Assembly (NCBI RefSeq): GCF_006716905.1
Contig: NZ_VFPV01000001.1
Coordinates: 239,501 to 303,500 of the forward strand
Reading direction: 5' to 3'
Length of the DNA: 64,000 nucleotides
DNA from: Acidovorax temperans
GTDB taxonomy: Bacteria > Pseudomonadota > Gammaproteobacteria > Burkholderiales > Burkholderiaceae_C
Position 1 is the stretch's first letter. Each line of letters starts with the position of its first letter. Below the pieces are notes generated by a model. It ran no database searches, was not told where the DNA came from, and saw only the letters and a list, made by a program, of their open reading frames with translations. Shown here in pieces: positions 8,121 to 58,373 of this stretch. Made by a program: the position numbers and the translations under genes.

Positions 8121-8183
8121 GGCAGTCCCCTGTGCGTGAATAGTGGCAGCGCTGCCCGGCCTTGCAGCGCCAAAAATGGCTCA

Positions 8184-8343
8184 GGCCGGTCTTCTGGCTT
8201 GGAGTCATCTGGCCCCCGCACCTTCCCGGCCTTGGCGACCAGTGGCATTCAGCGGGCGGCATCGTCCTTACAGCGTTGGGCACGCGGCGGAGTTGCACCG
8301 CCTTCCCGATTCTCCCTTTGCGTCATCGCATTGGGCACCTGAG
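8184..8343 (-). promoter_or_regulatory. Cobalamin (B12) riboswitch upstream of bluB
   Basis: Read on the minus strand, the leader of bluB contains the conserved elements in order: GGTGCC, AAAGGGAGAATCGGGAA, the paired GGCGGTGCAACTCCGCC, GCCACTGG and the closing AGCCAGAAGACCGGCC. This is the RF00174 consensus. It is expected to shut off bluB-cobT when adenosylcobalamin is plentiful. The element sits inside the operon, after cobQ, so the upstream genes are not under it in cis. Confidence 0.93.
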
Positions 8344-8379
8344 GGCGGGGATGATAGCAGCCGGTGAACCGCGTATTTC

Positions 8380-21984: not shown

Positions 21985-24900
21985 TCAGTGGTAAACCGGC
22001 GTCCCCCCGCCCAGGCCGGCGCTGTAGATGTGTGCGAACACGGCGCCCGCCTTGATGTTGATTTCGTCAGGGTCATAGGCGCTGGCTGGCAGGTGGGCAT
22101 ACAAGTGCTTGATGATCTCTGCCTTCATTTGCGCCTGCACGGTCGCCATACTGCGCAAGCGCTCCAGCGCGAAACGTTGATCGGCCAATTTGCCCAGTAA
22201 GTCCTTGGCGACTTTCTTGATCGCTTCACGATCACCCTTGGTGAGTGAATCCTTCTGAAGCAAGTCGAACACGGCCAGTTCAGTTTCGCTATCGAGCCCT
22301 TCGCGCAGGTAGCGTTTTTCCTCTTCGCTGCAATCGTCATTGAAGGCAAACAGGTCGTCCATCACCTTCTGTATTTCTGCCGCATCCTTGTCTTTGTTGT
22401 ATTCCTGAACGATTTCCTGATAACGCTCATAGAGGTCCACACGAGTGGGGTTGCGCGCCACCATCGCAGCCAGGCGTTCCTCGATCTTCTCCATCAAGTT
22501 CATCGCCACGACATTCTTGAAGGGCGACTTCTCGAATTCGGCACGCAGGCGAGAAAAATCGATGTTGGAAAGGTCATACCGGGCTGTAGGTTCGCGCACT
22601 GATGGAGCGTCAGTTGCTACTGCCACATCTACCACGTCGTACAAATCTTGTAGCAAGCTACTGACATCCGGTGATACACGCGCATCCTGCATCTTGTTGT
22701 AGATGGCAGTGACAGCACTCTCCACCGCATCGAAATCAAACAGACCCGGATGCGGGAACAGGCCGCGATGGCGCGCTTGCACATCCTCAACAATCACCTG
22801 ATAGGTCTTGCGGCGCTCGTCACTTTCGCAGAGAAGGTTGACTGCCACCAAGATCTGCTTTTGTTTATCGAAGCCTTTGGCATTGACCAATTCGTCAACA
22901 TCAAAACCCAGATCCATCAGGAACTCCGTCGCAGCCTTGAGGCTATCGGCATATTCCGCCAGAGCCTCCGCATCGTCCCGCACCGTATCCTGTTCGGCCT
23001 CTCCCTTGCCCGTGCCAGCACGATCACCCTGGGCAAAAGTCGCCAGTGCCCGTCGCAGGCTTTTGATCATGCCGTTGTAATCGATGATCAGTCCATGCTT
23101 CTTGCCACCGCCAACCCGATTAACGCGGGCGATGGCCTGCATCAGGGTATGGCCCTGCATCGGCTTGTCCAGATACAGAGTGGCCAGGCATTTGACGTCG
23201 AAGCCGGTCAACCACATCGCGCAAACAATCGCGATGCGGAACGGGTTGTCTGCCTTCTTGAACTCCTTTTCCAGGTCGCGTTTGACCATCTTTTCGCGGT
23301 GCGGCGTGATATCCAGCGGCTCATCACGGAAATTCTTCCACTTGGCAAACTCCGCGATCTCGCCTTGCTCCTGTGAGACCACCACACAGCACTCGGTGGC
23401 TTTCATCCACTCCACGTGCTCCCGTCGCTGCTTGAGGAGTCCGGTAGGTGCTTTGCCCTTTGCTGCGAACAAGGCTTCTTCGGCCGCCACCGCCGTTTCC
23501 AACTGGGCGGCTTTCTCCTGCCACTTGGCCACGATCAGATCGTGCATCTTCACGCAGGTGATCTTGTCCAGGCACACCATCAAGGCCTTGCCACCCCCGT
23601 TTTCGACCACGCGCCAGCGCTGGTGAAAGTGGTCAACAAAGTCTTGCGCCACCTTGTCCAGTCGCGTGGGTGATGTCAGGATGGGGTAATCACGTGCCAA
23701 TTCCCGGTAGAGCTTTTCCTCTTTTTCGTCAGTCCACGGATCATCCAGCGTGGCCGCCTGCTTTGCCGCTTCGATGTGCTGCGCGATGCGTTCACTCACC
23801 TTGGGATCGATGATCTTCAGCTTTTCGCCAGCGTTCTCATAGAACAAGGGCAGCGTCGCACCATCGGCCACCGCACGCTGGAAATCGTAGATCGAGACAT
23901 AGTCACCGAATACCTCCCGGGTCAGTTGCTTCTCGCCGGCGTCGATCAACGGGGTGCCCGTGAAGCCCAGGAACTTGGCGTTTGGCAGTCCTTTGCGCAT
24001 ATTCAGCGCCAGCCGTCCATACTGCGTCCGGTGTGCCTCGTCGCTGATGACGATAATGTCATCACGGTCGGAATAAGCCTCCGTGACGCGCTCCCGATAT
24101 TTTTGGATCAGGCCGAACACATAGCGGCGGTTCTGGTCGCGCAACATCGACCTCAACGCAGCACCATTCTTGGCTTGATCGGTTTTGCTATTGGCACGCC
24201 CGCAGTTGGTGTAGGTCGATGCAATCTGATCATCCAGCTCGGTACGGTCGGTGATGACCACGAACGACCACGATGCCGACAGTTTGCGATGGATTTTTTC
24301 GGTCAAAAACACCATCGAATACGACTTGCCCGAACCCTGGGTATGCCAGAACACGCCCAACTGCCCGGCGGCGACCTCTGCCTGAATCTTGGGGTCGGTG
24401 GAGGTCAGCCGGTCGATCACGCGATTCACCCCGAGGTACTGGTGGTTGCGTGCCACGATCTTGTGCGTGCTGCCCTCAGAGGCATCAAACAGGATGAAGT
24501 TCTCAACGATATCCAGCAGGCGTTGCTGCTGCAGCATGCCCTGCAAGAGAAACGGCAGCAGGGGCTGGTCCTTGCCGGGTTCCGGATCGTCCTCGTCGAG
24601 TCGCTTCCAGCGATAGAAATGCTCCTTGCTGGAGGTCAACGAGCCGTACTGCGCGTCGTGGCCGTTGGAAATGATGACCAGCGCGTTCCAGTGAAACAGA
24701 TGCGGGATGGTGTCCAGGTAATCGGCGTAGTTTTTCTTGTACGCGCTGTCGATGTGCACCTCGAACCGCTTGAGCTCGATGAACACAAGGGGCAAGCCGT
24801 TGACGAAGCCGATCACATCCGGGCGACGCAGCCACAATTTGCCACGTACCCACAACTCACGCACCGCCAGGTAGCGATTGTTCTTGGGCTCATCAAAATC

Positions 24901-25278
24901 GATCAAGCGCAAGCGTTTGTCGACCAGCCGACCCGCAGCGTCGCGGTATTTCACCGGCACGCCATCGCGCAACAGCTTGTACTTTTCCTCGTTTTGCGCG
25001 ATCAACGATTTGGTGATGTCATCCTGAACCACCAGCGCCAAGGCATCCTGATAGGCCGCATCGGGCAAGCCCGGGTTCAAGCGCTTGAGTGCTGCCAGTA
25101 CATCCCGGGTGAGCACAACTTCCGCATCCGATGCACGGCCCAGCAGACTATCTGGCCCCCATCCACCTTTGGCACCTTCATCCTGCGCAAACACGCTCTC
25201 CCAGCCGAGCTGTTGTTCCAGCAGTTCCGCCGTGGGTGCCTGAATCAACAGGTCTTCGGAATAATCCTTCTTGGCCAT
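21985..25278 (-). CDS. hsdR: Type I restriction enzyme motor/nuclease subunit HsdR
   Basis: HsdR translocates DNA and cuts it when the HsdMS methylase meets unmethylated sites. The 1097-residue protein has the PD-(D/E)xK nuclease at about residues 130-175 (RPDVIGFVNGLPLVFIELKR), the Walker A FWHTQGSGKSYS near 316, DEAH in VISDEAHRTQYG near 412, motif III FTGTP and motif VI QAIARVNR. Length and motifs appear intact. It is last in the minus-strand defence operon, 18 bases after the Abi gene. Confidence 0.95.
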   Translation of the reverse strand: MAKKDYSEDLLIQAPTAELLEQQLGWESVFAQDEGAKGGWGPDSLLGRASDAEVVLTRDVLAALKRLNPGLPDAAYQDALALVVQDDITKSLIAQNEEKYKLLRDGVPVKYRDAAGRLVDKRLRLIDFDEPKNNRYLAVRELWVRGKLWLRRPDVIGFVNGLPLVFIELKRFEVHIDSAYKKNYADYLDTIPHLFHWNALVIISNGHDAQYGSLTSSKEHFYRWKRLDEDDPEPGKDQPLLPFLLQGMLQQQRLLDIVENFILFDASEGSTHKIVARNHQYLGVNRVIDRLTSTDPKIQAEVAAGQLGVFWHTQGSGKSYSMVFLTEKIHRKLSASWSFVVITDRTELDDQIASTYTNCGRANSKTDQAKNGAALRSMLRDQNRRYVFGLIQKYRERVTEAYSDRDDIIVISDEAHRTQYGRLALNMRKGLPNAKFLGFTGTPLIDAGEKQLTREVFGDYVSIYDFQRAVADGATLPLFYENAGEKLKIIDPKVSERIAQHIEAAKQAATLDDPWTDEKEEKLYRELARDYPILTSPTRLDKVAQDFVDHFHQRWRVVENGGGKALMVCLDKITCVKMHDLIVAKWQEKAAQLETAVAAEEALFAAKGKAPTGLLKQRREHVEWMKATECCVVVSQEQGEIAEFAKWKNFRDEPLDITPHREKMVKRDLEKEFKKADNPFRIAIVCAMWLTGFDVKCLATLYLDKPMQGHTLMQAIARVNRVGGGKKHGLIIDYNGMIKSLRRALATFAQGDRAGTGKGEAEQDTVRDDAEALAEYADSLKAATEFLMDLGFDVDELVNAKGFDKQKQILVAVNLLCESDERRKTYQVIVEDVQARHRGLFPHPGLFDFDAVESAVTAIYNKMQDARVSPDVSSLLQDLYDVVDVAVATDAPSVREPTARYDLSNIDFSRLRAEFEKSPFKNVVAMNLMEKIEERLAAMVARNPTRVDLYERYQEIVQEYNKDKDAAEIQKVMDDLFAFNDDCSEEEKRYLREGLDSETELAVFDLLQKDSLTKGDREAIKKVAKDLLGKLADQRFALERLRSMATVQAQMKAEIIKHLYAHLPASAYDPDEINIKAGAVFAHIYSAGLGGGTPVYH

Positions 25279-25296
25279 CGGCCCCCCTGTTTCTTG

Positions 25297-26208
25297 TTAT
25301 GGCGTGCCTGGCTTTGGGTCCTGCCAGATGGGCAGGTTTTGCCGGTTGGCGGGAAAGTCCATGGCCGCTACGGACACACCGTGCCGGGCGATCAGACCTT
25401 TCAGACGACTACGCCAATGATGCTGTGGCGCGATCACATCCATGCAATGCAGCAGGATGACCAGTGCGTTGTAAAGCTTGCGCGAACCACCATGGAACTG
25501 CGCCGCCAAACCGGCCGGCTTGTTGCGCGGCAGCAGCGGTGTGATGGTGAACTCGCGGTTCCACAAACGGCTGTGATGCGCGCAGGTATTGCGCACCAGT
25601 GAGAGGTGCCGCAGCCAGGATTCGAGCACCTTCTCGTCCACGCCATAGGCAGCAGCGATGGCGCGGCGCGTGGGCATCGGCTTGAGATTGTTGTACCAGC
25701 GCGAGAGCAATCCCAGCGACATCACCTCACACACGGCCCACACCGGCGGCAGGCTTTCCGAGTAGGTGTTCTGCAAATGCTTGATGAAAGCCTCGTCAGA
25801 GCGGCCCACTTCATCGCTCAGCTTGTCGAGGTTGGTTTGCCAGAGATGCGGCTTGAAGGCCAGCGTGACATCCAGGTGGGCATGTGGGCCATGCTGGTGT
25901 GCCAATTGATAAGCCCACTGGCTACGCACCGACACCTCCACGCGCTCGATGGCGTCCAGCACCAACAGGCGCAGCTCCCGGTCGAACACGTAGAGGTCCA
26001 GCACCTGCGCAAAGTGGGTGCCGGGCTTGAAAGTGTGCGTGGCGTGGTCGGCTTCGAAGGGCAGCCAGTAGGCCCCAAGCCGGTAGTAGTTGAGGTGCTG
26101 CAGGTAGAACTCGGCGGCGGCCGGGTCCTCGATGACCATGCCACGCTGCTGAAGCAGCGCCACTTGTTGGGCGTGGGTGGTGGCAGGCTTGGCGAAGGGG
26201 CGCTTCAT
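25297..26208 (-). CDS. Abi_2-family (AbiD/AbiF-like) HEPN protein, putative abortive-infection RNase
   Basis: The 303-residue protein opens with the Abi_2 pattern [20 protein letters not shown] and [15 protein letters not shown], then [24 protein letters not shown]. The HEPN RNase motif R-x4-H is present as R206-NTCA-H211 within [18 protein letters not shown], so catalytic function is expected. Members of this family arrest growth or degrade RNA on phage infection. AbiF-type members have been reported to pair with a small structured RNA, and such an RNA appears directly upstream here. The RBS GGGGAG lies inside a nested hairpin. The gene is embedded in a type I restriction operon between DUF4411 and hsdR. 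Confidence 0.88.
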
Positions 26209-26209
26209 C

Positions 26210-26252
26210 GTGCGCTCCCCAACCCGCAGTGGGTTGCTGATTTCGGGCGCAC
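26210..26252 (-). promoter_or_regulatory. Nested hairpin enclosing the Abi ribosome-binding site
   Basis: Immediately before the Abi ATG the outer arms GTGCGC/GCGCAC (26247-26252 with 26210-26215) enclose an inner hairpin CAACCC-ACTGC-GGGTTG (26220-26236). The Shine-Dalgarno GGGGAG sits between the two stems. Folding would hide the start, so translation may be controlled. Confidence 0.6.
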
Positions 26253-26313
26253 AAAAAAGTAACCCGCCGGTTTGAGGATACGCTCGCGCGCATAGCCTTG
26301 GCGGGTTTTGTTA
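26250..26313 (-). ncRNA. Candidate structured RNA (possible RNA antitoxin) upstream of the Abi HEPN gene
   Basis: A transcript of about 64 bases is predicted from the strong promoter at 26320-26349. It has a perfect 8-bp stem, AACCCGCC (26300-26307) with GGCGGGTT (26261-26268), an inner hairpin formed by GGCTATGC and GCGTATCC, and then TTTTTT, which looks like an intrinsic terminator. There is no ribosome-binding site or reading frame of note. Position, size and compactness resemble RNAs reported beside AbiF-type HEPN proteins; function is inferred. Confidence 0.6.
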
Positions 26314-26319
26314 GGGCGC

Positions 26320-26349
26320 AGTATACGCGCAATGCGCGCGTTTTGGCAA
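26320..26349 (-). promoter_or_regulatory. Strong sigma-70 promoter for the candidate Abi RNA
   Basis: TTGCCA (26344-26349) and TATACT (26320-26325) are separated by 18 bases on the minus strand. It is one of the best promoter matches in the window, and it lies inside an otherwise co-transcribed operon, giving the Abi segment independent expression. Confidence 0.72.
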
Positions 26350-26410
26350 CCCAACCGGCTGGCAGTGGGTAGAAGGTCGGGGGCAAACGGGGCGGTATGC
26401 AGGGCTTCGA

Positions 26411-26908
26411 TCACGGCTGTCCGCCTCCCAGAACGAACTTGGCTTTTTCCACACGCAGCATCTCGTAGGGCGTCATGAAGCGCAGCCCCAGTCCGATGCA
26501 CACATTGGGAATCTTGATGCGCTTGACCGAATTCGCGGCCACCTCGTGGGTCACCACGATATGCCCGCCTGCAAGGGCATGTGCCACCAGGTAGAAATCG
26601 GCCACCTGCAAAAAGGTGTTGATGGCCGCAGGTTCGTACTGCTGGCCAGTCACCCAGGTGCTCACCTTGCCGAACTGGGCGGCCACAGCGGCATCCGTTT
26701 TGCGGAACAGGCCATTGCCGTGGTCGTGCATCCACTGGGTCAGCTCGTCCGCGCCGGCGGCGATCTCATCGGCCACCTTGTCGATGCTGAACACCCGCCC
26801 GTCGGCGTGGCCGTCGATCAACCACTGCCAGAACGCCGGGCAGAAATCCAGACCGTAGTGCAGGTTCTTTGCCTGGATGAAGACGTTGGCGTCCAGCAAA
26901 TAGCTCAT
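26411..26908 (-). CDS. DUF4411-family PIN-like protein (putative toxin RNase)
   Basis: The 165-residue protein begins MSYLLDANVFIQAKNLHYG, with the first PIN acidic residue in LLDAN, then FSIDKVADEI and [20 protein letters not shown], the expected spacing of PIN-like acidic residues. DUF4411 proteins are predicted metal-dependent RNases and are commonly found next to a COG2856 (ImmA/IrrE) gene, as here. Its ATG is reached by the upstream gene with a 4-base overlap. Confidence 0.85.
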   Translation of the reverse strand: MSYLLDANVFIQAKNLHYGLDFCPAFWQWLIDGHADGRVFSIDKVADEIAAGADELTQWMHDHGNGLFRKTDAAVAAQFGKVSTWVTGQQYEPAAINTFLQVADFYLVAHALAGGHIVVTHEVAANSVKRIKIPNVCIGLGLRFMTPYEMLRVEKAKFVLGGGQP

Positions 26909-28056
26909 GCCATCACCCCCAGCTCGCGCGCCGCTTCATAGAAGGTGGCGGTTTTGCGCACGCCCAGCATGCGGAAAGCATCCTGGAACAGGGTCTGCCC
27001 CTCCAGTGTGCTGGTCACAATCGCGCGGGCAAAACGCTTGCTGGTGCGTGCGCTCAAGGTGCGGTAGAAGTCGCCACCGCCGGTACCGTGCCGCTCCAGT
27101 GCACGCAAGCGGGCATGTTCATCGCGGTAGTGCTGCCACAGCCGGGCCTGATCCAGAAATCCGGCATCGAACAAGCGCCGCAGGGCCACCAAGGTGCTGA
27201 CCTTGAATTCCCGTGCCAGCCGCTGGATTTCATCCGGCACAGGCGTGCCGGGTTGGTAGGCCACACGCAGCGCCTCCAGCGGCATCAGCAGTTCGGCAGC
27301 CACCTGGTTGCACCAGCGCTCAATGCCCTGCTCGGGCACCTGGCCTGCCTCGGTGTCCGATACGCCGGTCGCGCCCAGCCACAGGTGGGCCAGCTCGTGT
27401 GCCAGGGTGAACATCTGCGCGGCCTTGCTGTCCGCACCGTTCAGGAATACTAACGGGGCCAGATCATCGGCCAGCGCAAAGCCGCGAAACTCCCCCACAT
27501 CCAGCTTGCGGTGGCTGTTGCTGCCCACGATGCCACTGGCCATCACCATCACCCCGGCCTCTTCGGCCTTGGCGATCAACTGCCGCAGCGCGTCCGTCCA
27601 GGTGGGCAATTGGCGTCGTTCTTGGGTGGAAAGCTTGAGCTCCACACGCATGCGCTCGGCCACGGCCTGCGGCGCTTCGTTCACCTGCGCGCTGCCAACA
27701 AAGGCCAGACGGGCAAGGCCGTGCACACGGGCATAGTCGCGGTACCAATCTTGCCGCTGCTGGCACAGATACAGCGTGTCCAGCAAGGCGCTGCTCGGCT
27801 CGCGCAGTTCCTCGTCGCGCAGGGTGCGGAAATCCGGCACCGGCAAAGCCAGCGCGGGCGGCTCGGGCAGAAAGAAATAGCCGATGGCGGTGTGGGTCAG
27901 CCGCGCGAAGTCTTCCAACTGCTTGAGCGTGGGCTGGGCCTCGCCGGTTAACCACAGGGGCCACTTGCGAAAGCGCGCCGACAAATCTTCGTCGTGCAGA
28001 CGTGCCCGCTGCACGGCCCAGCGCAGCACCGGGATGGAAGCCGCGACTGTGGTCAC
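26905..28056 (-). CDS. ImmA/IrrE-family zinc metallopeptidase (putative antitoxin/regulator)
   Basis: The 383-residue protein has the gluzincin motif HELAH in MFTLAHELAHLWLGATG near residue 220 and the downstream region of the COG2856 family. The N-terminal 100 residues (QPTLKQLEDFARLTHTAIGYFFLPEPPALALPVPDFRTL) are typical of this group. These peptidases regulate by cleaving partner repressors or form toxin-antitoxin-like pairs with DUF4411 proteins. It overlaps the DUF4411 gene and hsdS by 4 bases each, so translation is coupled. Confidence 0.88.
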   Translation of the reverse strand: MTTVAASIPVLRWAVQRARLHDEDLSARFRKWPLWLTGEAQPTLKQLEDFARLTHTAIGYFFLPEPPALALPVPDFRTLRDEELREPSSALLDTLYLCQQRQDWYRDYARVHGLARLAFVGSAQVNEAPQAVAERMRVELKLSTQERRQLPTWTDALRQLIAKAEEAGVMVMASGIVGSNSHRKLDVGEFRGFALADDLAPLVFLNGADSKAAQMFTLAHELAHLWLGATGVSDTEAGQVPEQGIERWCNQVAAELLMPLEALRVAYQPGTPVPDEIQRLAREFKVSTLVALRRLFDAGFLDQARLWQHYRDEHARLRALERHGTGGGDFYRTLSARTSKRFARAIVTSTLEGQTLFQDAFRMLGVRKTATFYEAARELGVMA

Positions 28057-29309
28057 GCTGCGACCTCAGCAGGCAAGGCGATACCGGAGACATCAAGCTG
28101 ACCGGACATCAGTTTGGGGAGCAGACGGTCGCGTGCTTTGGTCAATTCTTGATTCTGTTTCTTGATCAATCGAACCTGCTGAATCAAGGGGTACGTTTTA
28201 TCCTCATAAAATTTCAAGAGAGCATCGGTTGGCCATAGCACTGGCAGTGCCCGGAAAGTCTTTTTCGAGAGCTCTTTGAAGGTCGCTCCCGTTGCCAATC
28301 CGATCATTTCTTCGACTCGGTCCAGCAAATTGAACAGCAGGAACATCCGAGCACTATCTTGCTTGGGCAATACAGAAATAAACCCTTGGTTCGTGCAGGC
28401 GGGCTTGTCCATCAGCGCGAAGAAACCAATCGATGCGCGACTGGTCATCAGGATCGTTTCAGGTGGCACCAGTTTGGCCGACGAGTTGGCAAGACCGGCT
28501 TCGGTGATTTTCTTTTCCGAGTCGAGCATCACGAGGCAATCGTTCCGGGTCACGTCGGTAGGCGTCACCCATGTCACATCACCACCCCAATACTCAGGGC
28601 GCGCCGTGGATGGTGTTCCACCGCCCACTGCGTCACAGACATCACCCAAAGTCAGCGATAACCACCCCGCCGGCACCCCATCCTTCACCGGCACCGATTC
28701 ATGGCCGGGAAAGCGCAGGTGCACGAACCACTCGCGGTAGAGGCGGCGGGCGGCGTCTTCGAGCAAGGCGATGCGGCGCTGGTTGGTGGCGATCAGGTCG
28801 TCGTACAGGGCAACAACTTGGCGAATCGCGATCTGCTCGTCAAGTGGTGGCACATGCACCTTAATCAATTTCAAGTCGCTGCCACGAATCCCTTTTACGG
28901 CAGCACCTCCAACGATTGCTCGAATTCTCGATCGCCCGATTGGGGAACGAAAGTAGTTAAAGAAAAACTCGGGGTCGGCAATCGCTCTATCGAGACGAAC
29001 TCGAATGATGGACGATTCAAAGGTCAGTGGCCCGGCTGGCTTGTAAACGATGGAGCACTTGCCCGCACCTTCTTCAACAAGTGAACGGCGGCCGAATAGC
29101 AAATCGCCATCGATGAGGCCACTTTTGTCCATTTCTGCATCGGACATCCGAATCAGAGACATTGGCTGATTGCCTATCCGGTTAAACGCAAACAGCTCCC
29201 CCATGTTGACGATGGGCACCCCCGAACCGTGGTGATCCTTGCTCTTGTAAACACCATTACGACTTGGTGCTGCGAAGAGGGATTCAAAGTCAACTTCGGG
29301 CCAGCTCAT
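28053..29309 (-). CDS. hsdS: Type I restriction-modification specificity subunit HsdS
   Basis: The 418-residue protein has the two-fold HsdS layout: a first target-recognition domain (about residues 1-160), a conserved helical spacer (LDEQIAIRQVVALYDDLIATNQRRIALLEDAARRLYREWF), a second recognition domain (LGDVCDAVGGGTPSTARPEYWGG) and a C-terminal helix region ending LMSGQLDVSG. It determines the DNA target for methylation and cleavage. It overlaps hsdM by 4 bases. The target sequence cannot be read from this. Confidence 0.93.
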   Translation of the reverse strand: MSWPEVDFESLFAAPSRNGVYKSKDHHGSGVPIVNMGELFAFNRIGNQPMSLIRMSDAEMDKSGLIDGDLLFGRRSLVEEGAGKCSIVYKPAGPLTFESSIIRVRLDRAIADPEFFFNYFRSPIGRSRIRAIVGGAAVKGIRGSDLKLIKVHVPPLDEQIAIRQVVALYDDLIATNQRRIALLEDAARRLYREWFVHLRFPGHESVPVKDGVPAGWLSLTLGDVCDAVGGGTPSTARPEYWGGDVTWVTPTDVTRNDCLVMLDSEKKITEAGLANSSAKLVPPETILMTSRASIGFFALMDKPACTNQGFISVLPKQDSARMFLLFNLLDRVEEMIGLATGATFKELSKKTFRALPVLWPTDALLKFYEDKTYPLIQQVRLIKKQNQELTKARDRLLPKLMSGQLDVSGIALPAEVAA

Positions 29310-31483
29310 CCCAACAACTCCTCAAAGTTGCCGGCAATTCGCCCTGCCAGTTCCACCGCCTTGTCGTTCAGTTCCGCCAGTTCGGCATGGATGCCGCGCA
29401 GGGTTTCCGCAAAGTCTTCTTCATCGTGCTCTGCGGCGGCTGCCACGCCCACATAACGCCCCGGCGTGAGCGAGTAATCGTTGGCGGCGATGTCCTCCAC
29501 GCTGACGGCCTTGCACAGGCCGGCCACATCTTCAAACAAAGCCTGTGGAAAGCGGCTGTGCAGCCAGTGCACCTGATGGATGAAGTAGGCGGCCTGCTTG
29601 AGGGCGTCGAGCACCGCGTCGCGCACGGTGGGGGCTTCGTTCTTTTTGCTGTCGGCGGCCAGCAGGGCGCGCTTGGCGTCGCGGGCGGCTTTGCCGTCGA
29701 AGGCTTTGCTCTGACGGGCGCGCAGCTGTTTTTCTGCCGTGTCTAAGAGCTTTAACCATTGCTTGTGGCGGGCTTCGAGCAGCTTGGCCGTCGCTTTGAG
29801 TTGCGGGGCCAGGGCATCGAGCGTGGCTTGCAGTGCCACTTGTGCGGCGTGGTCGCTCAAGTCTGCCTGCGCAATGGCGGCGCGGCTCTGGGTGCAGGCG
29901 GTGAGCAGCGCGGCAATGCTGTCCGCCACGTGCGTGTCGGCCTGGGCTGCGGCCAGCTCGGCTTTGAAAGCATCAAGCTGGGCCTGAGAAATCTGCGCGT
30001 CCTCGGCTTGGTCGGCGTTCAATTCAGCAAGCGTGGCCTGGCTGGCAAAGGCTTGCAGCGGCACAGCCAAGGCCTGCACGGCGGCGGTGTCGGCCTCGAT
30101 GCGTTCGGGAATGGCGGCCAGCCAGTCATCCACTTGCCGCTGGTAGCGGGCCACCAAGGCGACGAATTTCTCGCGCTCGCCCCGGTACAGCCAAACGATG
30201 GCGTTGAGGTTGGCGAGTTGCTCATCGGTGAATACATGGGAGCGCGCCGAGACCACGTGGTAGACGTTGCGCGCGTCGATCATCAGCACCTGGTCTTGCA
30301 GATCCTGCGGCTTGCCTTTGTCGAAGAACCACAGGGTGCAGGGCAGGCTGCGGGTGTAGAAGAACTTGTTGCCAATGGCCATCATCACATCGACGTGGCC
30401 GGTTTTGACCAGTTGCTCGCGGATGTCGCGGTCTTTGTTGCCGGCGTCCGAGGCACTGGAGGCCATGACGAAACCGGCGCGGCCAGTTTCGTTCAGGTAG
30501 GCGTAGAAGTACTGAATCCACAGGCTGTTGGCGTTGCTGATGGCACCTGTTTTGGCATTGGTGCCGGGCAGGCCAAAGGGCAAGCGCCCGGCCTCATCCA
30601 CCTGGGCTTCCACCTTTTTGGTATCCACCCCGTCCACGTTGAAGGGTGGGTTGGCCATGACGAAATCGCACTGGCCGATCAGGTGTTCAGCCTGGTCGTA
30701 GAAGGTGTTGCCCTGGCGGATGTTGGAGGCATCCAGCCCGTGCACCACCAGGTTCATGCGTGCCAGTTTGGTGTTGGTGTCGCTTTTTTCCTGACCGTGA
30801 AAGGTGACGGAATCGTTGACCACGGCATGACGCACATCTTCGATGAAATGGCCGGTCTGCACGAACATGCCCGCCGAGCCGCAGGCCGGATCGAGCACGA
30901 GGCCGTGATCGGGCTCGATGACGTTGACGATCATGCGCACCAGCGACGGTGGCGTGAAAAATTCGCCGCCTTCCTGCGCGCCGCTCATGGCGAACTTGTT
31001 GAGGAAGTATTCGTAAATGCGCCCGAAAACATCGCCGGTGGCGGCCTTGATGGCGGGGCGGTCGAAAATCTTGACCAGTTCGGCCAGCAGATCAGGCTCG
31101 AAGGCGGCATAGCCACGCGGCAAGGCACCGGACAACACCGGGTACTCGGCCTCGACCGCGTCCATGGCGGCGTCGATGATTTCGCCCACCTTGGCCCCTT
31201 GCGGCAGGCTGACGATGCGGTCAAAACGCGCCACCTCGGGCAGATAGATGGCGGCTTTGCCTTGAAAGCCGAGTTTGATCAGTGCTTCGCGCTGGGCGGC
31301 GGGTACTTGCGGCGGGATGTCGGATTCGATTGCGGGCAGGTAGGCCTTGAATCGGTTATCGGCGTGGCGCAGGAAGATCAGGCCCAGCACCGGCATCGAG
31401 TATTCGGCGGCGGTGAGCTTGGAGTTGGCGCGCAGCTGGTCAGCGGCTTCCCACAGTTCGTTTTCGAGTTGCTGCACGTTCAT
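29306..31483 (-). CDS. hsdM: Type I restriction-modification methyltransferase subunit HsdM
   Basis: This N6-adenine methyltransferase subunit has 725 residues. The SAM-binding motif VLDPACGSAGMFVQT is near residue 198 and the catalytic NPPF is in DFVMANPPFNVDG near 278. The N-terminal HsdM_N helical domain begins MNVQQLENELWEAADQLRAN. It is longer than the usual 500-550 because of a C-terminal coiled extension of about 200 residues. It overlaps the HTH gene upstream and hsdS downstream. Confidence 0.95.
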   Translation of the reverse strand: MNVQQLENELWEAADQLRANSKLTAAEYSMPVLGLIFLRHADNRFKAYLPAIESDIPPQVPAAQREALIKLGFQGKAAIYLPEVARFDRIVSLPQGAKVGEIIDAAMDAVEAEYPVLSGALPRGYAAFEPDLLAELVKIFDRPAIKAATGDVFGRIYEYFLNKFAMSGAQEGGEFFTPPSLVRMIVNVIEPDHGLVLDPACGSAGMFVQTGHFIEDVRHAVVNDSVTFHGQEKSDTNTKLARMNLVVHGLDASNIRQGNTFYDQAEHLIGQCDFVMANPPFNVDGVDTKKVEAQVDEAGRLPFGLPGTNAKTGAISNANSLWIQYFYAYLNETGRAGFVMASSASDAGNKDRDIREQLVKTGHVDVMMAIGNKFFYTRSLPCTLWFFDKGKPQDLQDQVLMIDARNVYHVVSARSHVFTDEQLANLNAIVWLYRGEREKFVALVARYQRQVDDWLAAIPERIEADTAAVQALAVPLQAFASQATLAELNADQAEDAQISQAQLDAFKAELAAAQADTHVADSIAALLTACTQSRAAIAQADLSDHAAQVALQATLDALAPQLKATAKLLEARHKQWLKLLDTAEKQLRARQSKAFDGKAARDAKRALLAADSKKNEAPTVRDAVLDALKQAAYFIHQVHWLHSRFPQALFEDVAGLCKAVSVEDIAANDYSLTPGRYVGVAAAAEHDEEDFAETLRGIHAELAELNDKAVELAGRIAGNFEELLG

Positions 31484-31716
31484 GCGTTGTTCTCATTGTT
31501 CTGTTCAGCGGATGCGCTGCTGTCTTCATCCGCGCCCCCGGCACGCACCCATTCATCCACCTCGGAGAGCTGGAATTTCCACAGCCGCCCGATCTTGTGC
31601 GCGGGCAGTCCTTTGCGTTCACGCCAGCGGTAGACGGTGTCTTTCACCACGCCCAAATGCCGGGCGACATCGATGGCAGTGACCCACGGTTCGGCGTTCA
31701 TGGCATTGGCGCTCAC
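31480..31716 (-). CDS. MerR/excisionase-type helix-turn-helix protein, first gene of the hsd operon
   Basis: The 78-residue protein contains one winged HTH of the excisionase type (VTAIDVARHLGVVKDTVYRWRERKGLPAHKIGRLWKF, residues about 11-47) and an acidic tail. It overlaps hsdM by 4 bases and may regulate the operon through the GGGGTAA boxes upstream. The start may be the GTG at 31716 or the ATG at 31701; neither has a strong RBS. Confidence 0.8.
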   Translation of the reverse strand: MSANAMNAEPWVTAIDVARHLGVVKDTVYRWRERKGLPAHKIGRLWKFQLSEVDEWVRAGGADEDSSASAEQNNENNA

Positions 31717-33247: not shown

Positions 33248-33577
33248 TCACACTGCGTCGGGCTCCTGCATCCACGCCGGGATGTCGCGCTGGCCGTGAA
33301 GTACGCGCCAGACGTCGATGTGATCGGGACGCTCGACGTAGAAGATGATGTACGGGTAGCGCGTCAGCGGCCAGGCGCGCAGGCCGGGCAAGTTGAGTTC
33401 GTGTGCGTAGCGGGGAGAACCCGTTGCCGGATGGCGGGCAATGTGGCCGTAGGCCTTCTCCAGCGCATCGATGAAGCCAAGCGCCACGGCCTCATTTGCT
33501 TCAGTCAGATAGTAGGTAACGGCCTCGTCAACATCCCGGTTGGCCTGCTCACGCGGGATGACTGGCTTGGCCTTCAC
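33248..33577 (-). CDS. parE: ParE/RelE-family toxin
   Basis: The 109-residue protein shows the ParE fold: REQANRDVDEAVTYYLTEAN, FIDALEKAYGHIARHPATGSPRY, LPGLRAWPLTRYPYIIFYVE and VWRVLHGQRDIPAWMQ. ParE toxins poison DNA gyrase. Its GTG start overlaps the parD stop (GTGA), the standard antitoxin-first order. Confidence 0.9.
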   Translation of the reverse strand: MKAKPVIPREQANRDVDEAVTYYLTEANEAVALGFIDALEKAYGHIARHPATGSPRYAHELNLPGLRAWPLTRYPYIIFYVERPDHIDVWRVLHGQRDIPAWMQEPDAV

Positions 33578-33825
33578 GCCTTGGCAGCGGGCTTGCCGGC
33601 CTTGCGCACCCGATCCCGCAGGTCTTCGAAGTAGCTGGCATCGGCATGGGCCGCCGGGGCCGAGGCTGCTCCGGCCAGCAGCAGGTTGCGCAGTTGCAGG
33701 CGGTCTTGATCCTTGCGGATCAACTCGCGCACGTACTCGCTGCTCGTGCCGTAGCCGCGCTGGCTGACCTGTTCATCCACGAAGGACTTCAGGGTGTCGG
33801 GGAGAGAGATGTTCATCGTGCTCAT
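33574..33825 (-). CDS. parD: ParD-family antitoxin
   Basis: The 83-residue protein begins MSTMNISLPDTLKSFVDEQV, a ribbon-helix-helix, then GYGTSSEYVRELIRKDQDRL, and ends in an Ala/Lys tail that would bind the toxin. Direct repeats TTTGGCAA lie just upstream (about 33843-33860) in the divergent promoter shared with the next gene and are a likely autoregulatory operator. Confidence 0.9.
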   Translation of the reverse strand: MSTMNISLPDTLKSFVDEQVSQRGYGTSSEYVRELIRKDQDRLQLRNLLLAGAASAPAAHADASYFEDLRDRVRKAGKPAAKA

Positions 33826-43378: not shown

Positions 43379-44494
43379 TCACCCCGCCAACTCGTAACCC
43401 GTACTGCGGCCCCCACCCGGTGTTTTCTGTAGCACCCCAAGATCCAACAGCTGCGTGATGTCGCGCAGCGCAGTATCGGGCGAGCACTTGGCGATCGCCG
43501 CCCATTTGCTGCTGGTCAACTTGCCGTCGAAACCGTCGAGCAGACGGTTGAGCAATTTCACCTGGCGTTCATTCAGCGGCTGACCCGCCCAGCGTTGCCA
43601 GAAACGCGCCTTGACCAACACCGCGTCCAGGGTGGTCTGAGAACTGGCTACCGCGCGGCCCAGGGTGCCCAGGAACCAAGACAGCCAGCCTGTCACGTCG
43701 AGCGAGCCTTTCTGGGTTCGCTCGAGCACTTCGTAGTAGTCCTTGCGCTCCCGCTGGATTTGGGCCGACAGGCTGTAAAAGCGCTGCGGGCTGCCATCAG
43801 CTCGGGCCAGGAACAGGTCGCCCACGGCGCGGGCGATGCGTCCGTTGCCATCGTCAAACGGATGGAGAGTCACGAACCAGAGATGCGCCAACCCCGCTTT
43901 GATCAGCATAGGCTCCCCCGTCTCGGCATTGGCCCAGGCCAGAAAGCGGTCGATCTCGGCGGCCAGCGCCTGCGCAGGCGGGGCCTGAAAGTGCACCTTG
44001 CGCCGCCCCATATGCCCTGACACCACTTGCATGGGCCCCTCGGCATCGGTTCGCCACTGTCCCACCTCAATCCGGGTCATACCGGAGTAGCCGGTGGGAA
44101 ACAAAGCGGCGTGCCAGCCAAACAAGCGCTCGGCCGTCAGAGGGTCGGTGGCACGGGTGGTCGCATCCAGCACCATCTCCACCACCCCCTCCACATGCCG
44201 GTCCACAGGCGCCACTGCGCCGATATCCACGCCCATGCGGCGGGCGATGGAAGATCGCACCGATTGCACGTTGAGGACTTCGCCTTCGATCTCGCTGGTC
44301 TTGACCACGTCTTCGGTCAACGCCGCCAGACTGGCCTGGTCCCGCAACGCCATCCCCACATCCGCCAATCGCCCGAGCAACAATCCCTGAGAACGGCTGA
44401 CGTCTGTCAATGGACCGGCGAGCGCCGCCAGGTCGTAGCGCCACTGCGGCCAAACGTCTGCCTGCCAGATGTAGAGTTTTTCTCCGTCATTCAT
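43379..44494 (-). CDS. Fic-domain AMP-transferase with N-terminal inhibitory helix
   Basis: Fic enzymes transfer AMP from ATP to target proteins. The 371-residue protein has the inhibitory motif (S/T)xxxE(G/N) as TSEIEG in LTEDVVKTSEIEGEVL, a class II arrangement in which the inhibitory helix lies in the same chain. The Fic core HPFDDGNGRIARAV has the catalytic His, with FPTGYSGMTRIEVGQWR as flap. The last 80 residues form a winged helix (LTSSKWAAIAKCSPDTALRD), so it may also bind DNA. Repeats at its promoter support autoregulation. Confidence 0.92.
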   Translation of the reverse strand: MNDGEKLYIWQADVWPQWRYDLAALAGPLTDVSRSQGLLLGRLADVGMALRDQASLAALTEDVVKTSEIEGEVLNVQSVRSSIARRMGVDIGAVAPVDRHVEGVVEMVLDATTRATDPLTAERLFGWHAALFPTGYSGMTRIEVGQWRTDAEGPMQVVSGHMGRRKVHFQAPPAQALAAEIDRFLAWANAETGEPMLIKAGLAHLWFVTLHPFDDGNGRIARAVGDLFLARADGSPQRFYSLSAQIQRERKDYYEVLERTQKGSLDVTGWLSWFLGTLGRAVASSQTTLDAVLVKARFWQRWAGQPLNERQVKLLNRLLDGFDGKLTSSKWAAIAKCSPDTALRDITQLLDLGVLQKTPGGGRSTGYELAG

Positions 44495-48241: not shown

Positions 48242-49868
48242 CCCGGATATTTCACGCATGTAGGCAACGGCCTGCGCAGCGGGGCATCGCGGCGCGGATT
48301 TGAGCGAGCAAGGCCACGATGTTGGCCGCAGCCATGGGTGTGATGGTTGGCATGCGCAATGCGGTCGCACTGACCCCCACCCCGGCTTGGGTTGCGGGCC
48401 GTTTTTGTTTCATCGCGCCGGCCAGGCGCTGCTGGTGTGTTCAGGGTGAGCGCAGCTGGCTCATGGCGTGCGCGAAGGTCTGCGCACTGGGCCAGTTGGA
48501 GGCCAGGTACAGGCGGATGCGCCGCGTGTTGCGCGTCACCACTGCCGCCACCTTGAGCAGCTTCATGCGCAGCGTGTCGATCTGCGCCGTGGCCAGCTCT
48601 GTGCCCTGCAACGCCAACGCGCGCAGCCTCTCTACCAGCACGTAGCCCAGCGCGGCCAGCAGCATGCGCAGTTGGTTGGAGCGCAGCACATGGCAGCTCG
48701 TGCGCGTGGCGAACAGCCCTACCTGCGCTTCCTTGATCCGGTTCTCCGCCTCGCCGCGCTGGCAGTACACGCCGTCGTACAGCGCCTGGGGATCACCGGC
48801 AAGGTTTGTCACGATGAAGCGCGGGTTGCAGCCTTGCGCGCCCCATTCAAGCCGCGTGATCACGCGCCGCTCGTGCGGCCAGCTCTGTGCGGCGTAGTCG
48901 AATTCATCGACCATGCGCTGTTTGGCCCCGCTGCGCTCGTATTCGTCTTTCATTGAGAGTTCGGCAAACGCCACGCGCGCCTGCAGCCGTGCATTGCGCG
49001 CCAGACCCACGATGTAGTGCACGCCGGCGCGCTCGCACCAGTTCAGGATGCGTTGGCGGCAGAACCCGGAGTCGGCCCGAAACACGATGCGCACCTGCGG
49101 CCAACTCTGGCGCAGTCGGCGCACCAGCAGCTTGAGGATAGCCCCAGCGTGCTGCGCCGCATCGATGTTGCTGGGCCGCAAGTAGGCGCACAGCAGTTGC
49201 TGGCCGCAGAACACGTACAGGGGCAGGTAGCAGTAGCTGTCGTAGTAACCATGGAAGAAGCGTGCCTCCTGCTGGCCGTGCAACGGGTTGTCGGTGGCAT
49301 CAAAGTCCAGCACCAACTCTTCGGGCGCGCTCTCGAAGCTGGCGATGAACTGATTGACCAACACCTCGTGCAGCCGCCACGCCGTGGCACGGTCGGCCCA
49401 TTTCTCCAGTCGGCAAAGCGTAGGCGCGCTGGCAATCTCGTGGTCCACGCCAACAGCCGTCTGCACAGCCACGTCACAGCGCAGAGCACCGTGGTCGTTG
49501 AGGTCTTCCCAGCCCAGCGCCAGGCCGTACACCCGCTGGCGCAACATGTCGCGCACGTCGTGCGTGATCAGTAGCGGATTGCGCGGATCGGCGATGCAGC
49601 GCGCCGCCGCATCCATCAAGCCCAGCTTGCGATCGACCTGGCCAAGCAGCATCACGCCACCATCGCTGGTCATGCTGCCGCCGTCAAAACACCCCTGCAC
49701 CACGCGCCGGCCCAACCGGCCAAAGTCCATGCTCCCAACGTCAATTTCTTCGGTACAGTTTGGCTTCGGCATTGCCCGCTCGTTGATCAAGATTCGACAC
49801 CTGGATTTTCGGGCACACAAGGGCAATGCCGTCCTCGTTTGTGGCTCTACTACGGTGAAATATCCGGG
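48242..49868 (-). mobile_element. IS1380-family insertion sequence, copy 1
   Basis: The 1627-bp element has 14-bp terminal repeats CCCGGATATTTCAC and one transposase gene. It is flanked by TTAG on both sides, consistent with a 4-base target duplication. The sequence is repeated at a distance of 1631 bases. Confidence 0.93.
48441..49772 (-). CDS. IS1380-family transposase, copy 1
   Basis: The 443-residue DDE transposase begins MPKPNCTEEIDVGSMDFGRL and has the acidic residues in LVLDFDATDNPLHGQQ, IVFRADSGFCRQRIL and YCQRGEAENRIKEAQ (the IS4/IS1380 Y-x-R-E-x-E type signature). A TTG-started extension to 49826 is less likely. The copy appears intact. Confidence 0.93.
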   Translation of the reverse strand: MPKPNCTEEIDVGSMDFGRLGRRVVQGCFDGGSMTSDGGVMLLGQVDRKLGLMDAAARCIADPRNPLLITHDVRDMLRQRVYGLALGWEDLNDHGALRCDVAVQTAVGVDHEIASAPTLCRLEKWADRATAWRLHEVLVNQFIASFESAPEELVLDFDATDNPLHGQQEARFFHGYYDSYCYLPLYVFCGQQLLCAYLRPSNIDAAQHAGAILKLLVRRLRQSWPQVRIVFRADSGFCRQRILNWCERAGVHYIVGLARNARLQARVAFAELSMKDEYERSGAKQRMVDEFDYAAQSWPHERRVITRLEWGAQGCNPRFIVTNLAGDPQALYDGVYCQRGEAENRIKEAQVGLFATRTSCHVLRSNQLRMLLAALGYVLVERLRALALQGTELATAQIDTLRMKLLKVAAVVTRNTRRIRLYLASNWPSAQTFAHAMSQLRSP

Positions 49869-49872
49869 TTAG

Positions 49873-51499
49873 CCCGGATATTTCACGCATGTAGGCAACG
49901 GCCTGCGCAGCGGGGCATCGCGGCGCGGATTTGAGCGAGCAAGGCCACGATGTTGGCCGCAGCCATGGGTGTGATGGTTGGCATGCGCAATGCGGTCGCA
50001 CTGACCCCCACCCCGGCTTGGGTTGCGGGCCGTTTTTGTTTCATCGCGCCGGCCAGGCGCTGCTGGTGTGTTCAGGGTGAGCGCAGCTGGCTCATGGCGT
50101 GCGCGAAGGTCTGCGCACTGGGCCAGTTGGAGGCCAGGTACAGGCGGATGCGCCGCGTGTTGCGCGTCACCACTGCCGCCACCTTGAGCAGCTTCATGCG
50201 CAGCGTGTCGATCTGCGCCGTGGCCAGCTCTGTGCCCTGCAACGCCAACGCGCGCAGCCTCTCTACCAGCACGTAGCCCAGCGCGGCCAGCAGCATGCGC
50301 AGTTGGTTGGAGCGCAGCACATGGCAGCTCGTGCGCGTGGCGAACAGCCCTACCTGCGCTTCCTTGATCCGGTTCTCCGCCTCGCCGCGCTGGCAGTACA
50401 CGCCGTCGTACAGCGCCTGGGGATCACCGGCAAGGTTTGTCACGATGAAGCGCGGGTTGCAGCCTTGCGCGCCCCATTCAAGCCGCGTGATCACGCGCCG
50501 CTCGTGCGGCCAGCTCTGTGCGGCGTAGTCGAATTCATCGACCATGCGCTGTTTGGCCCCGCTGCGCTCGTATTCGTCTTTCATTGAGAGTTCGGCAAAC
50601 GCCACGCGCGCCTGCAGCCGTGCATTGCGCGCCAGACCCACGATGTAGTGCACGCCGGCGCGCTCGCACCAGTTCAGGATGCGTTGGCGGCAGAACCCGG
50701 AGTCGGCCCGAAACACGATGCGCACCTGCGGCCAACTCTGGCGCAGTCGGCGCACCAGCAGCTTGAGGATAGCCCCAGCGTGCTGCGCCGCATCGATGTT
50801 GCTGGGCCGCAAGTAGGCGCACAGCAGTTGCTGGCCGCAGAACACGTACAGGGGCAGGTAGCAGTAGCTGTCGTAGTAACCATGGAAGAAGCGTGCCTCC
50901 TGCTGGCCGTGCAACGGGTTGTCGGTGGCATCAAAGTCCAGCACCAACTCTTCGGGCGCGCTCTCGAAGCTGGCGATGAACTGATTGACCAACACCTCGT
51001 GCAGCCGCCACGCCGTGGCACGGTCGGCCCATTTCTCCAGTCGGCAAAGCGTAGGCGCGCTGGCAATCTCGTGGTCCACGCCAACAGCCGTCTGCACAGC
51101 CACGTCACAGCGCAGAGCACCGTGGTCGTTGAGGTCTTCCCAGCCCAGCGCCAGGCCGTACACCCGCTGGCGCAACATGTCGCGCACGTCGTGCGTGATC
51201 AGTAGCGGATTGCGCGGATCGGCGATGCAGCGCGCCGCCGCATCCATCAAGCCCAGCTTGCGATCGACCTGGCCAAGCAGCATCACGCCACCATCGCTGG
51301 TCATGCTGCCGCCGTCAAAACACCCCTGCACCACGCGCCGGCCCAACCGGCCAAAGTCCATGCTCCCAACGTCAATTTCTTCGGTACAGTTTGGCTTCGG
51401 CATTGCCCGCTCGTTGATCAAGATTCGACACCTGGATTTTCGGGCACACAAGGGCAATGCCGTCCTCGTTTGTGGCTCTACTACGGTGAAATATCCGGG
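49873..51499 (-). mobile_element. IS1380-family insertion sequence, copy 2 (tandem)
   Basis: This is a second copy in the same orientation. It has the same 14-bp ends and is separated from copy 1 by only TTAG (49869-49872), with another TTAG at 51500. I found no difference from copy 1 in the parts I compared, and the predicted proteins are identical. Confidence 0.93.
50072..51403 (-). CDS. IS1380-family transposase, copy 2
   Basis: The protein is identical to the one at 48441, with the same start and DDE residues. Two intact identical copies imply recent duplication. The element could mobilise both units. Confidence 0.93.
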   Translation of the reverse strand: MPKPNCTEEIDVGSMDFGRLGRRVVQGCFDGGSMTSDGGVMLLGQVDRKLGLMDAAARCIADPRNPLLITHDVRDMLRQRVYGLALGWEDLNDHGALRCDVAVQTAVGVDHEIASAPTLCRLEKWADRATAWRLHEVLVNQFIASFESAPEELVLDFDATDNPLHGQQEARFFHGYYDSYCYLPLYVFCGQQLLCAYLRPSNIDAAQHAGAILKLLVRRLRQSWPQVRIVFRADSGFCRQRILNWCERAGVHYIVGLARNARLQARVAFAELSMKDEYERSGAKQRMVDEFDYAAQSWPHERRVITRLEWGAQGCNPRFIVTNLAGDPQALYDGVYCQRGEAENRIKEAQVGLFATRTSCHVLRSNQLRMLLAALGYVLVERLRALALQGTELATAQIDTLRMKLLKVAAVVTRNTRRIRLYLASNWPSAQTFAHAMSQLRSP

Positions 51500-58165: not shown

Positions 58166-58204
58166 GGGGCGTTTCCTGGGGGTGTTCCCCGCTCTTGGCA
58201 GGGC

Positions 58205-58262
58205 AGTTGTTCCCCGCCTACCGGGGTAAAACAGGTTTTGTTCCCCGATATGTTCCCCGCTC
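58205..58262. repeat. GTTCCCCG repeats before the integrase
   Basis: GTTCCCC occurs four times between the integrase start and ssrA (about 58175, 58209, 58238, 58251). The pair TGTTCCCCGATATGTTCCCC is mirrored at 48040 (TGTTCCCCGATTTGTTCCCC). They may be integrase arm sites or an operator. Confidence 0.5.
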
Positions 58263-58327
58263 ACGGTTTGGCTGTCAATGGTTGCCCCTGTCTATCCCTG
58301 CTGTGTAAGCTCTTGATTTACCAATGA

Positions 58328-58363
58328 AAAAGGCCGCCAGGTGGTGTTCCTTGGCGGCCTTTG
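58328..58363 (-). terminator. Terminator of ssrA (bidirectional)
   Basis: AAGGCCGCCA and TGGCGGCCTT pair around a loop with T runs on both sides (TTTTT leftwards, TTTGTTTT rightwards). It lies 12 bases from the tmRNA 3' end. Confidence 0.85.
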
Positions 58364-58373
58364 TTTTGGTGGA

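Follow-up and report, generated by a model that had tools for sequence, protein, structure and literature searches.

The locus described here is very probably a module of an AbiF toxin and its RNA antitoxin that has entered a type I restriction-modification (R-M) operon as a cassette. In the 64-kb window, by which we mean the whole stretch of DNA that was analysed, a promoter, a small structured RNA and an AbiF gene all lie on the minus strand, within an operon that holds hsdM, hsdS and hsdR on the same strand (Pfam, PADLOC) and runs, entirely on the minus strand, in the order HTH - hsdM - hsdS - M78 - DUF4411 - [RNA - abiF] - hsdR. The initial annotation, which named no strand, had suggested that an AbiF-type HEPN protein and a small antitoxin RNA form a pair within an hsd operon that also has other toxin-antitoxin genes; the gene order bears out the nesting, and the pair is supported by the RNA family, the protein family, the conserved promoter, covariation and the structure 8VZ6. 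The separability of the pair as a cassette, the occurrence of related cassettes in several R-M types and the RNA carried alone by phages go beyond that annotation. On sequence grounds, it is well supported that the window pair belongs to the known AbiF/RNA toxin-antitoxin kind, with AbiF as the predicted toxin and the RNA as the predicted antitoxin. The features of the locus are as follows.

31480-31716, minus strand: small HTH_17 protein, first in the operon (PADLOC mad1-like, 7e-11)
29306-31483, minus strand: HsdM (Pfam; PADLOC)
28053-29309, minus strand: HsdS (Pfam; PADLOC)
26905-28056, minus strand: M78/ImmA-type peptidase protein, RmrA-like, putative DUF4411 partner (Pfam; PADLOC)
26411-26908, minus strand: DUF4411 protein, putative toxin of a second toxin-antitoxin pair (Pfam)
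25278-26415, minus strand: promoter-RNA-AbiF cassette, about 1.14 kb, at the DUF4411/hsdR junction (no counterpart in the relative L126)
26320-26349, minus strand: sigma-70-like promoter, TTGCCA (26349-26344), 18 nt, TATACT (26325-26320), 10/12 matches
26253-26312, minus strand: abiF-type RNA, 60 nt, predicted antitoxin, with the RF03085 core at 26305-26262 (RF03085, homologues, covariation)
26300-26307, minus strand: outer stem, 5' arm, pairing with 26261-26268 (fold; homologue alignments)
26275-26298, minus strand: inner helix (26298-26296 with 26277-26275) and apical hairpin (26293-26288 with 26283-26278) (fold; covariation)
26261-26268, minus strand: outer stem, 3' arm (fold; homologue alignments)
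26253-26258, minus strand: T6 run, RNA 3' end and probable termination point (sequence)
25297-26208, minus strand: AbiF (Abi_2/AbiD-F HEPN RNase), 303 aa, predicted toxin (Pfam Abi_2, 8vz6_A, PADLOC AbiD)
25576-25593, minus strand: HEPN catalytic motif R206-N-T-C-A-H211 (alignment to 8vz6_A)
21985-25278, minus strand: HsdR (Pfam; PADLOC REase_I)

The same hsd operon holds a second putative toxin-antitoxin pair, M78 (RmrA-like) with DUF4411 (26411-28056, minus strand). Elsewhere in the window, a ParDE-like pair (33248-33815), a Fic-domain protein (43379-44494) and a DDE transposase with a nearby second ORF of the same length (48441-51457) were noted by eye, and a cobalamin riboswitch scores 112.9 bits at 8167-8357 on the minus strand. 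An integrase gene adjoins the tmRNA gene, ssrA (56927-58760), which points to an island at ssrA that may hold the hsd operon; a direct repeat of ssrA as the island's other end was looked for within the window, and zero exact repeats of at least 15 nt were found.

Most of AbiF, which starts at 26208 on the minus strand, is covered by Pfam Abi_2 (6.6e-59, residues 35-217), the only domain that it shows, and the protein aligns with PbAbiF (PDB 8vz6_A) over residues 3-296 (3.2e-61) and with PADLOC AbiD (8.3e-72). The HEPN R-x4-H motif reported in the initial annotation is present as R206-NTCA-H211, which aligns with 8vz6_A and corresponds to R210/H215 of PbAbiF. According to the accessible text of PMC12373285, the R210/H215 double mutant of PbAbiF is inactive, and changes at the equivalent residues likewise inactivate AbiFCd. 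The same text shows toxicity, RNA binding and neutralisation for relatives of the window pair, which may by analogy behave alike: AbiFCd is toxic, the RNA RCd22 neutralises it in cis and in trans via direct binding, and mutations that break the RCd22 stem abolish binding/neutralisation, whereas compensated mutations do not.

Upstream of abiF, the near-consensus promoter claimed in the initial annotation (TTGCCA-18-TATACT) stands, as one promoter-like site was found against a mean of 0.1 (sd 0.3) in 50 shuffles; its -10 element lies seven bases from the RNA start. The annotation had also described a transcript of roughly 64 bases with an 8-bp stem, an inner hairpin and a T6 tail. Its fold holds up: the 64-nt segment 26313-26250, with these elements, folds at -22.7 kcal/mol (z -2.95) and beats 197 of 200 shuffles in stability, the other 3/200 being equally good. 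The outermost pair of the outer stem is not kept in homologues. After the apical hairpin and stem, the 3' end of the RNA reads TTACTTTTTT; the T6 tail is seen there, yet it goes unscored as a terminator because the terminator scan of 26100-26500, which takes loops of 3-8 only, gave 0 sites versus 0.5 in shuffles. The absence of a reading frame from the RNA region agrees with the ORF list: no plausible gene occurs among ORFs of at least 60 aa in the 202 nt before AbiF, where such ORFs run off-frame from DUF4411 or into AbiF, or are antisense (25606-26262, plus strand).

The RNA shares with Rfam family RF03085 the outer stem and the core CCCGCC-AAG...CTCAAA-GGCGGGT, and this core and stem lie directly upstream of abiF. 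At the curated Rfam threshold no abiF RNA was found in the window; a permissive search matches 26305-26262 with 29.2 bits (E 0.0019 in 311 nt), under the gathering cut-off of 37 bits, which is a curation threshold and not a biological feature. This low score comes alongside an apical hairpin that differs from the RF03085 model in being 7 nt longer. Across the 4.65-Mb genome from which the window comes, a search at E<=10 that scored 150 of 2758 first-look candidates reported 26305-26262 as the sole RF03085 match (E 0.0066), and the genome's one Abi_2/AbiF-type protein adjoins it; at the same E<=10, 6/14 control genomes also gave matches, none above the cut-off. Among the 14 closest homologues (L023-L036), 13 score 27.1-29.6 bits with RF03085 and L033 scores 59.9. 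The homologue search took in 40 of the 80 named genomes (L023-L062) and, at E<=1, found a match in 28/40 versus 0/14 controls; 24 of these matches lie just upstream of AbiF and 4 elsewhere (L042, L049, L057, L058). Only five of the 40 genomes exceed the cut-off, in four cases with the match at the AbiF locus; the Rfam abiF family may need a broader seed to represent this clade.

Homologous loci were taken from a protein-alignment scan of genome contigs, in which the best 80 of at least 578 loci (45-82% identity) were kept; they are therefore the nearest relatives of the window AbiF, near-copies included. In 78 of these best 80, the RNA upstream of AbiF scores above the best of 100 mononucleotide-shuffled controls, the two exceptions being L068, which is cut by a contig end, and L100, a variant seen by eye. 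Nine of the 19 own-family loci outside the 80 also score above shuffled controls. The promoter can be followed through the same loci: over 75 distinct upstream rows, the -35 signal (TTGACA, at least 4/6) peaks at -36/-35 before the RNA start, in 16 and 18 rows against 0-5 elsewhere, and the -10 signal (TATAAT, at least 4/6) at -13/-12, in 30 and 20 rows against 1-10 elsewhere. Both the promoter and the order of RNA then toxin thus appear to be conserved in homologues. Two tandem abiF-like RNAs before a single AbiF, as in RCd22, were observed in L033 (4624-4740) and L003 (1320-1460).

The stem, too, is conserved in the upstream regions of Abi_2 homologues, with compensatory changes. In the main alignment of 68 RNAs, from which L053 and L058 were left out for their long loops, 99.3% of cells are paired, 8/10 pairs change on both sides and none of 500 shuffles reaches any of five covariation measures. 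The fairest covariation evidence is that of the inner helix, because the outer six pairs helped to pick the sequences; here 97.5% of cells are paired and two of the three pairs switch (C-G to A-U, C-G to G-C), dividing the RNAs of the loci into two subtypes within the RF03085 kind, AAGG..CCTCAAA and ACGC..GCGCACC. Among the 21 closest RNAs, 5/16 pairs change on both sides, a count as high in 1/500 shuffles, and the number of further pair types is reached by 128/500. A covariance model built from the 68 homologue RNAs (R1) recovers the RNA in 6 of 20 family loci (E<=1.4e-5), each time just upstream of AbiF; the 20 lie outside its training set, apart from L103, which copies a training locus. Weak but rightly placed matches occur in L110, L111 and L115 (E 0.25-0.58), and at E<=1 the RNA was not found at the right place in 11 of the 20 family AbiF loci (ten with none; L122 misplaced). 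The 74.5 bits that R1 gives the window RNA are no independent evidence, as this RNA was in the model.

It could be argued that the RNA is a cis leader or attenuator of abiF only, and not a trans antitoxin. The T6 run and the position before abiF would suit such a role, and RCd22 does repress abiF through early termination (PMC12373285, in excerpt), yet RCd22 also works in trans through protein binding, and the solved structure of PbAbiF includes its RNA (PDB 8VZ6; Zilberzwige-Tal et al., in excerpt). Conserved unpaired core letters and the orphan phage copies described below are likewise unexpected for a mere leader, and we regard this explanation as very unlikely. Preferring a toxin with an RNA antitoxin, we infer all regulation and triggering at the window locus along the following lines. 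The cassette's own promoter would make the short stem-loop RNA continuously, with most transcripts stopping at the U-run and a minority reading through into abiF. The RNA would bind the AbiF HEPN dimer and hold the RNase off; infection would then lower or deplete the short-lived RNA, AbiF would cut RNA, growth would arrest and the phage could not finish. Within the hsd operon, the module would perhaps add a second line of defence and also make loss of the R-M locus costly.

The boundaries of the cassette are drawn from relatives of HsdR, which at E<=1e-100 are present in 12 of 299 family genomes, the window's own included. No sequence upstream of hsdR is shared with the window in the 1.5-kb flank of the nearest, L125 (89%). 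In the next (L126, 85%), the stop of DUF4411 directly adjoins the start of HsdR, and in the window about 1.14 kb separates the two; the promoter-RNA-AbiF pair is a separable cassette of that length with a clean empty site in L126. Cassettes also lie beside a carbamoyl-phosphate synthase gene (L088) and between nrdA and nrdB, the latter an RNA-AbiF cassette between the genes for the ribonucleotide reductase large and small chains in a Burkholderiales MAG (L081, 6866-12256).

Placement among R-M genes is recurrent. In 29 of the best 80 of at least 578 loci, type I genes lie on both sides of AbiF and on its strand, 21 times with AbiF between hsdM and hsdS and 8 times between hsdS and hsdR; a further 7 loci have type I genes on one side, 4 type III-like mod-res genes (L054, L056, L058, L075), 2 MmeI-like genes and 3 a helicase only, and 35 have no R-M label nearby, some of these being short contigs. 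The corresponding counts for the 20 family loci are 5, 2, 0, 0, 1 and 12. This census is an undercount, 27/100 loci being short on one side, and some of its labels are putative (L087 MmeI, L058 mod, L060 HsdS). Within the 37 loci with full flanks, R-M ORFs number 30, 13, 19, 4 and 2 per 2-kb bin from AbiF; they occur within 2 kb in 19/37 loci and at 8-10 kb in 2/37, and all 30 within 2 kb share AbiF's strand. A quick AbiF tree of 101 rows requires at least 29 changes between R-M and none, and starred branches force at least 13 of these. Of the five nearest AbiF rows, L024 has an R-M label and four (L023, L025-L027) do not; the module can therefore do without R-M. Embedding in R-M operons is itself already known, as Abi2/AbiF/AbiD are listed there in Table 1 of Anantharaman 2013 (PMC3710099, accessible part); the present analysis adds counts per slot and R-M type, the linkage to the RNA and the empty site.

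The accessible part of the same paper suggests that R-M-linked HEPN clades are released in a PrrC-like manner (PMC3710099). Applied to the window, this would mean that the Hsd complex also gates AbiF, and that AbiF is set free by phage anti-restriction proteins or when HsdR is lost. Such guarding would suit the type I sandwiches (29/80 and 5/20), the same-strand clustering of R-M ORFs close to AbiF, and the neighbours of type III-like mod-res and MmeI (L063) type. We nevertheless consider it unlikely, given that 35/80 loci carry no R-M label nearby, that the association switches so often on the tree and that the RNA already supplies a control; moreover, the insertion slot and the type of R-M system vary, and therefore argue against one fixed protein contact. 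Or, perhaps R-M operons are simply permissive landing sites for a passenger or addiction cassette that stabilises an island and has little role against phages. The clean empty site in L126, the cassettes by nrdA/nrdB and the carbamoyl-phosphate synthase gene, and the integrase gene beside ssrA, which may mark an island with the operon, are in keeping with this idea; the same-strand R-M linkage near AbiF is not, and the copies of the RNA in phages suggest encounters of phages with AbiF, so that we hold a mere passenger to be rather doubtful. A defensive AbiF-RNA module, carried as a cassette, remains our preferred reading.

The phage-borne copies were collected by three exact-pattern scans of IMG/VR, which gave 67 contigs (1 + 10 + 56), and are listed here with the named phages and the bacterial matches discussed below.

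L123, 7118-7177, minus strand: orphan phage RNA without an AbiF gene
L123, L137-L202, L223-L233: phage records with abiF RNAs
L211, L212, L214-L222, about 1501-1557: weaker bacterial RNA matches without AbiF nearby, same family

All 67 viral contigs match R1 at E<=0.1 (28.5-71.1 bits), the lowest, L140, being cut in its slice and reaching 52.9 bits in its record. Over the whole records, Abi_2 is above the cut-off in six (L154, L158, L183, L184, L189, L191) and none was found above it in the other 61, which hold 43 distinct RNAs and include two with sub-threshold partial matches (L165, L199). Five of the 61 end within 1 kb downstream of the RNA (L141, L144, L175, L181, L202), leaving 56, and no viral record is rated 90% complete. 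Among 10 ORFs beside viral RNAs, 7 are terminase/portal/head-tail genes, 1 is a regulator and 2 are without a match. With RF03085, which was run on four viral contigs, L192 scores 53.2 bits and alone passes the cut-off, L139 scores 32.0, and no match was found at E<=0.1 in L123 and L142. Named phages above 37 bits with RF03085 are S-SZBM1 (55.7), S-CREM1 (52.2), Aeromonas PZL-Ah8 (50.1), Salicola CGphi29 (50.1), Aeromonas PT2 (44.4), ctMEh928 (40.0) and Rhizobium RHEph21 (38.0); SNW-1 reaches 33.3 bits and has no R1 match, and Pasto, Gabriela and Pan2 have R1 matches only (22-27 bits). Abi_2 was found at E<=0.01 in 0/11 named phage records. In S-SZBM1, S-CREM1, RHEph21, Gabriela and L181/L187 the RNA has tRNA genes around it; in PZL-Ah8 and PT2 it lies between genes for the connector and for capsid assembly, in Pasto it precedes the major capsid gene, and in CGphi29 and L123 it is located upstream of terminase genes. 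The abiF sRNA of S-CREM1 has already been reported and called possibly functional in infection (PMC9964418, in excerpt).

Phage PhiTE evades ToxIN through RNA copies of ToxIN's antitoxin (PMC3475682, in excerpt), and by this logic the orphan abiF RNAs would be AbiF decoys. We tentatively entertain, while stopping short of calling it probable, that they keep host AbiF off as an RNA counter-defence in several phage groups. The stems hold up in 52 phage matches, where 98.6% of cells are paired and both-side changes affect 37 cells versus 8.0 in shuffles (0/500), but the number of both-side-changing pairs is reached by 57/500 shuffles, and the alignment was fitted to the model. Tandem copies (four in L141, two in L193), conserved core letters outside the stem and the spread over several phage families and genome positions also argue for decoys. 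It is just as conceivable, and again something less than probable, that the orphan RNAs are leftovers, unrelated terminators or RNAs with another role. The -10 signal before phage RNAs shows no enrichment (15/44 versus a shuffled mean of 9.6 and maximum of 17 in 200 shuffles), and a phage-borne promoter signal like the chromosomal one was rejected as not above shuffles. In L147 (432-560; same RNA in L156, L161 and L176), a few residues that resemble the N-terminus of AbiF (KFAKPAL) come after the RNA, before the sequence becomes unrelated, and such copies look like remnants of a truncated module that has lost its toxin. The fragmentary viral records, the single pass (L192) among the four contigs given to Rfam, and 11 weaker R1 matches in bacterial genomes, also without AbiF within 1.5 kb, point the same way.

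These bacterial matches come from the 299 family genomes, in which R1 matches of at least 37 bits are AbiF-linked in 7/7 cases, the link in G070 being an AbiF N-terminus on its short contig. Of 12 weaker matches (27-36.5 bits), whose 1.5-kb flanks were searched for AbiF, one is linked (G183, 34.8 bits) and 11 are not; three of the latter (L214, L216, L217) keep the core letters, and bacterial orphan RNAs or a very distant AbiF are possible. The contrast between viral and bacterial sets is indicative only, because the search methods differ. A region of the lactococcal phage sk1 reportedly protects phage 712 from AbiF (Rince 2000, cited in PMC12737573); sk1 was considered as a carrier of abiF RNA and has no RF03085 or R1 match at E<=1. 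A decoy role was not found proposed in the accessible parts of PMC9964418, PMC12197685 and PMC12373285, nor by searches of an open-access library, and may be in print elsewhere.

The nested place of the module is recurrent and partly known; the surprise, and the lead to follow, lies in the orphan RNAs of phages. AbiF belongs to the toxin family proposed as ancestral to Cas13. The locus joins a relative of this proposed ancestor to its RNA, in a small cassette within a restriction operon and with an empty site for comparison, and the orphan RNAs raise a directly testable question: do phages disarm AbiF with its own RNA? If they do, the decoys would be another natural mimicry of a type III antitoxin, like the pseudo-ToxI of PhiTE, and would parallel rAcrVIA1, an RNA inhibitor of Cas13 (PMC12948488, in excerpt).

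Among known systems, PhiTE pseudo-ToxI resembles the orphan RNAs in being phage RNA in repeated copies that is like a type III antitoxin; the RNA and the toxin family differ, and function was shown for PhiTE and is proposed for abiF RNAs (PMC3475682, in excerpt). PrrC in EcoprrI is likewise an HEPN RNase gene among hsdMSR, but PrrC carries an ABC NTPase of its own and is kept in check by the R-M complex, whereas AbiF shows the Abi_2 domain only and has an RNA (PMC3710099, in excerpt). The neighbouring M78 protein matches PADLOC RmrA models and so recalls RosmerTA (RmrA/RmrT; PMC10440598, in excerpt), but M78/DUF4411 is a second toxin-antitoxin candidate, separate from AbiF and its RNA. The AbiFCd-RCd22 system of C. 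difficile phi027 shares with the window an own promoter, an RF03085-type RNA before abiF and the R-x4-H motif; RCd22, in a prophage lysis module, contains two motifs plus a separate terminator, whereas the window RNA has one motif and lies in an hsd operon (PMC12373285, in excerpt). PbAbiF-AbiFr (8VZ6, in excerpt) offers a homologous AbiF (3.2e-61) with the catalytic R and H aligned and a cis-encoded antitoxin RNA, which is a predicted antitoxin here; the sequence comparison covers the protein, and the window pair differs by sitting in a type I R-M operon.
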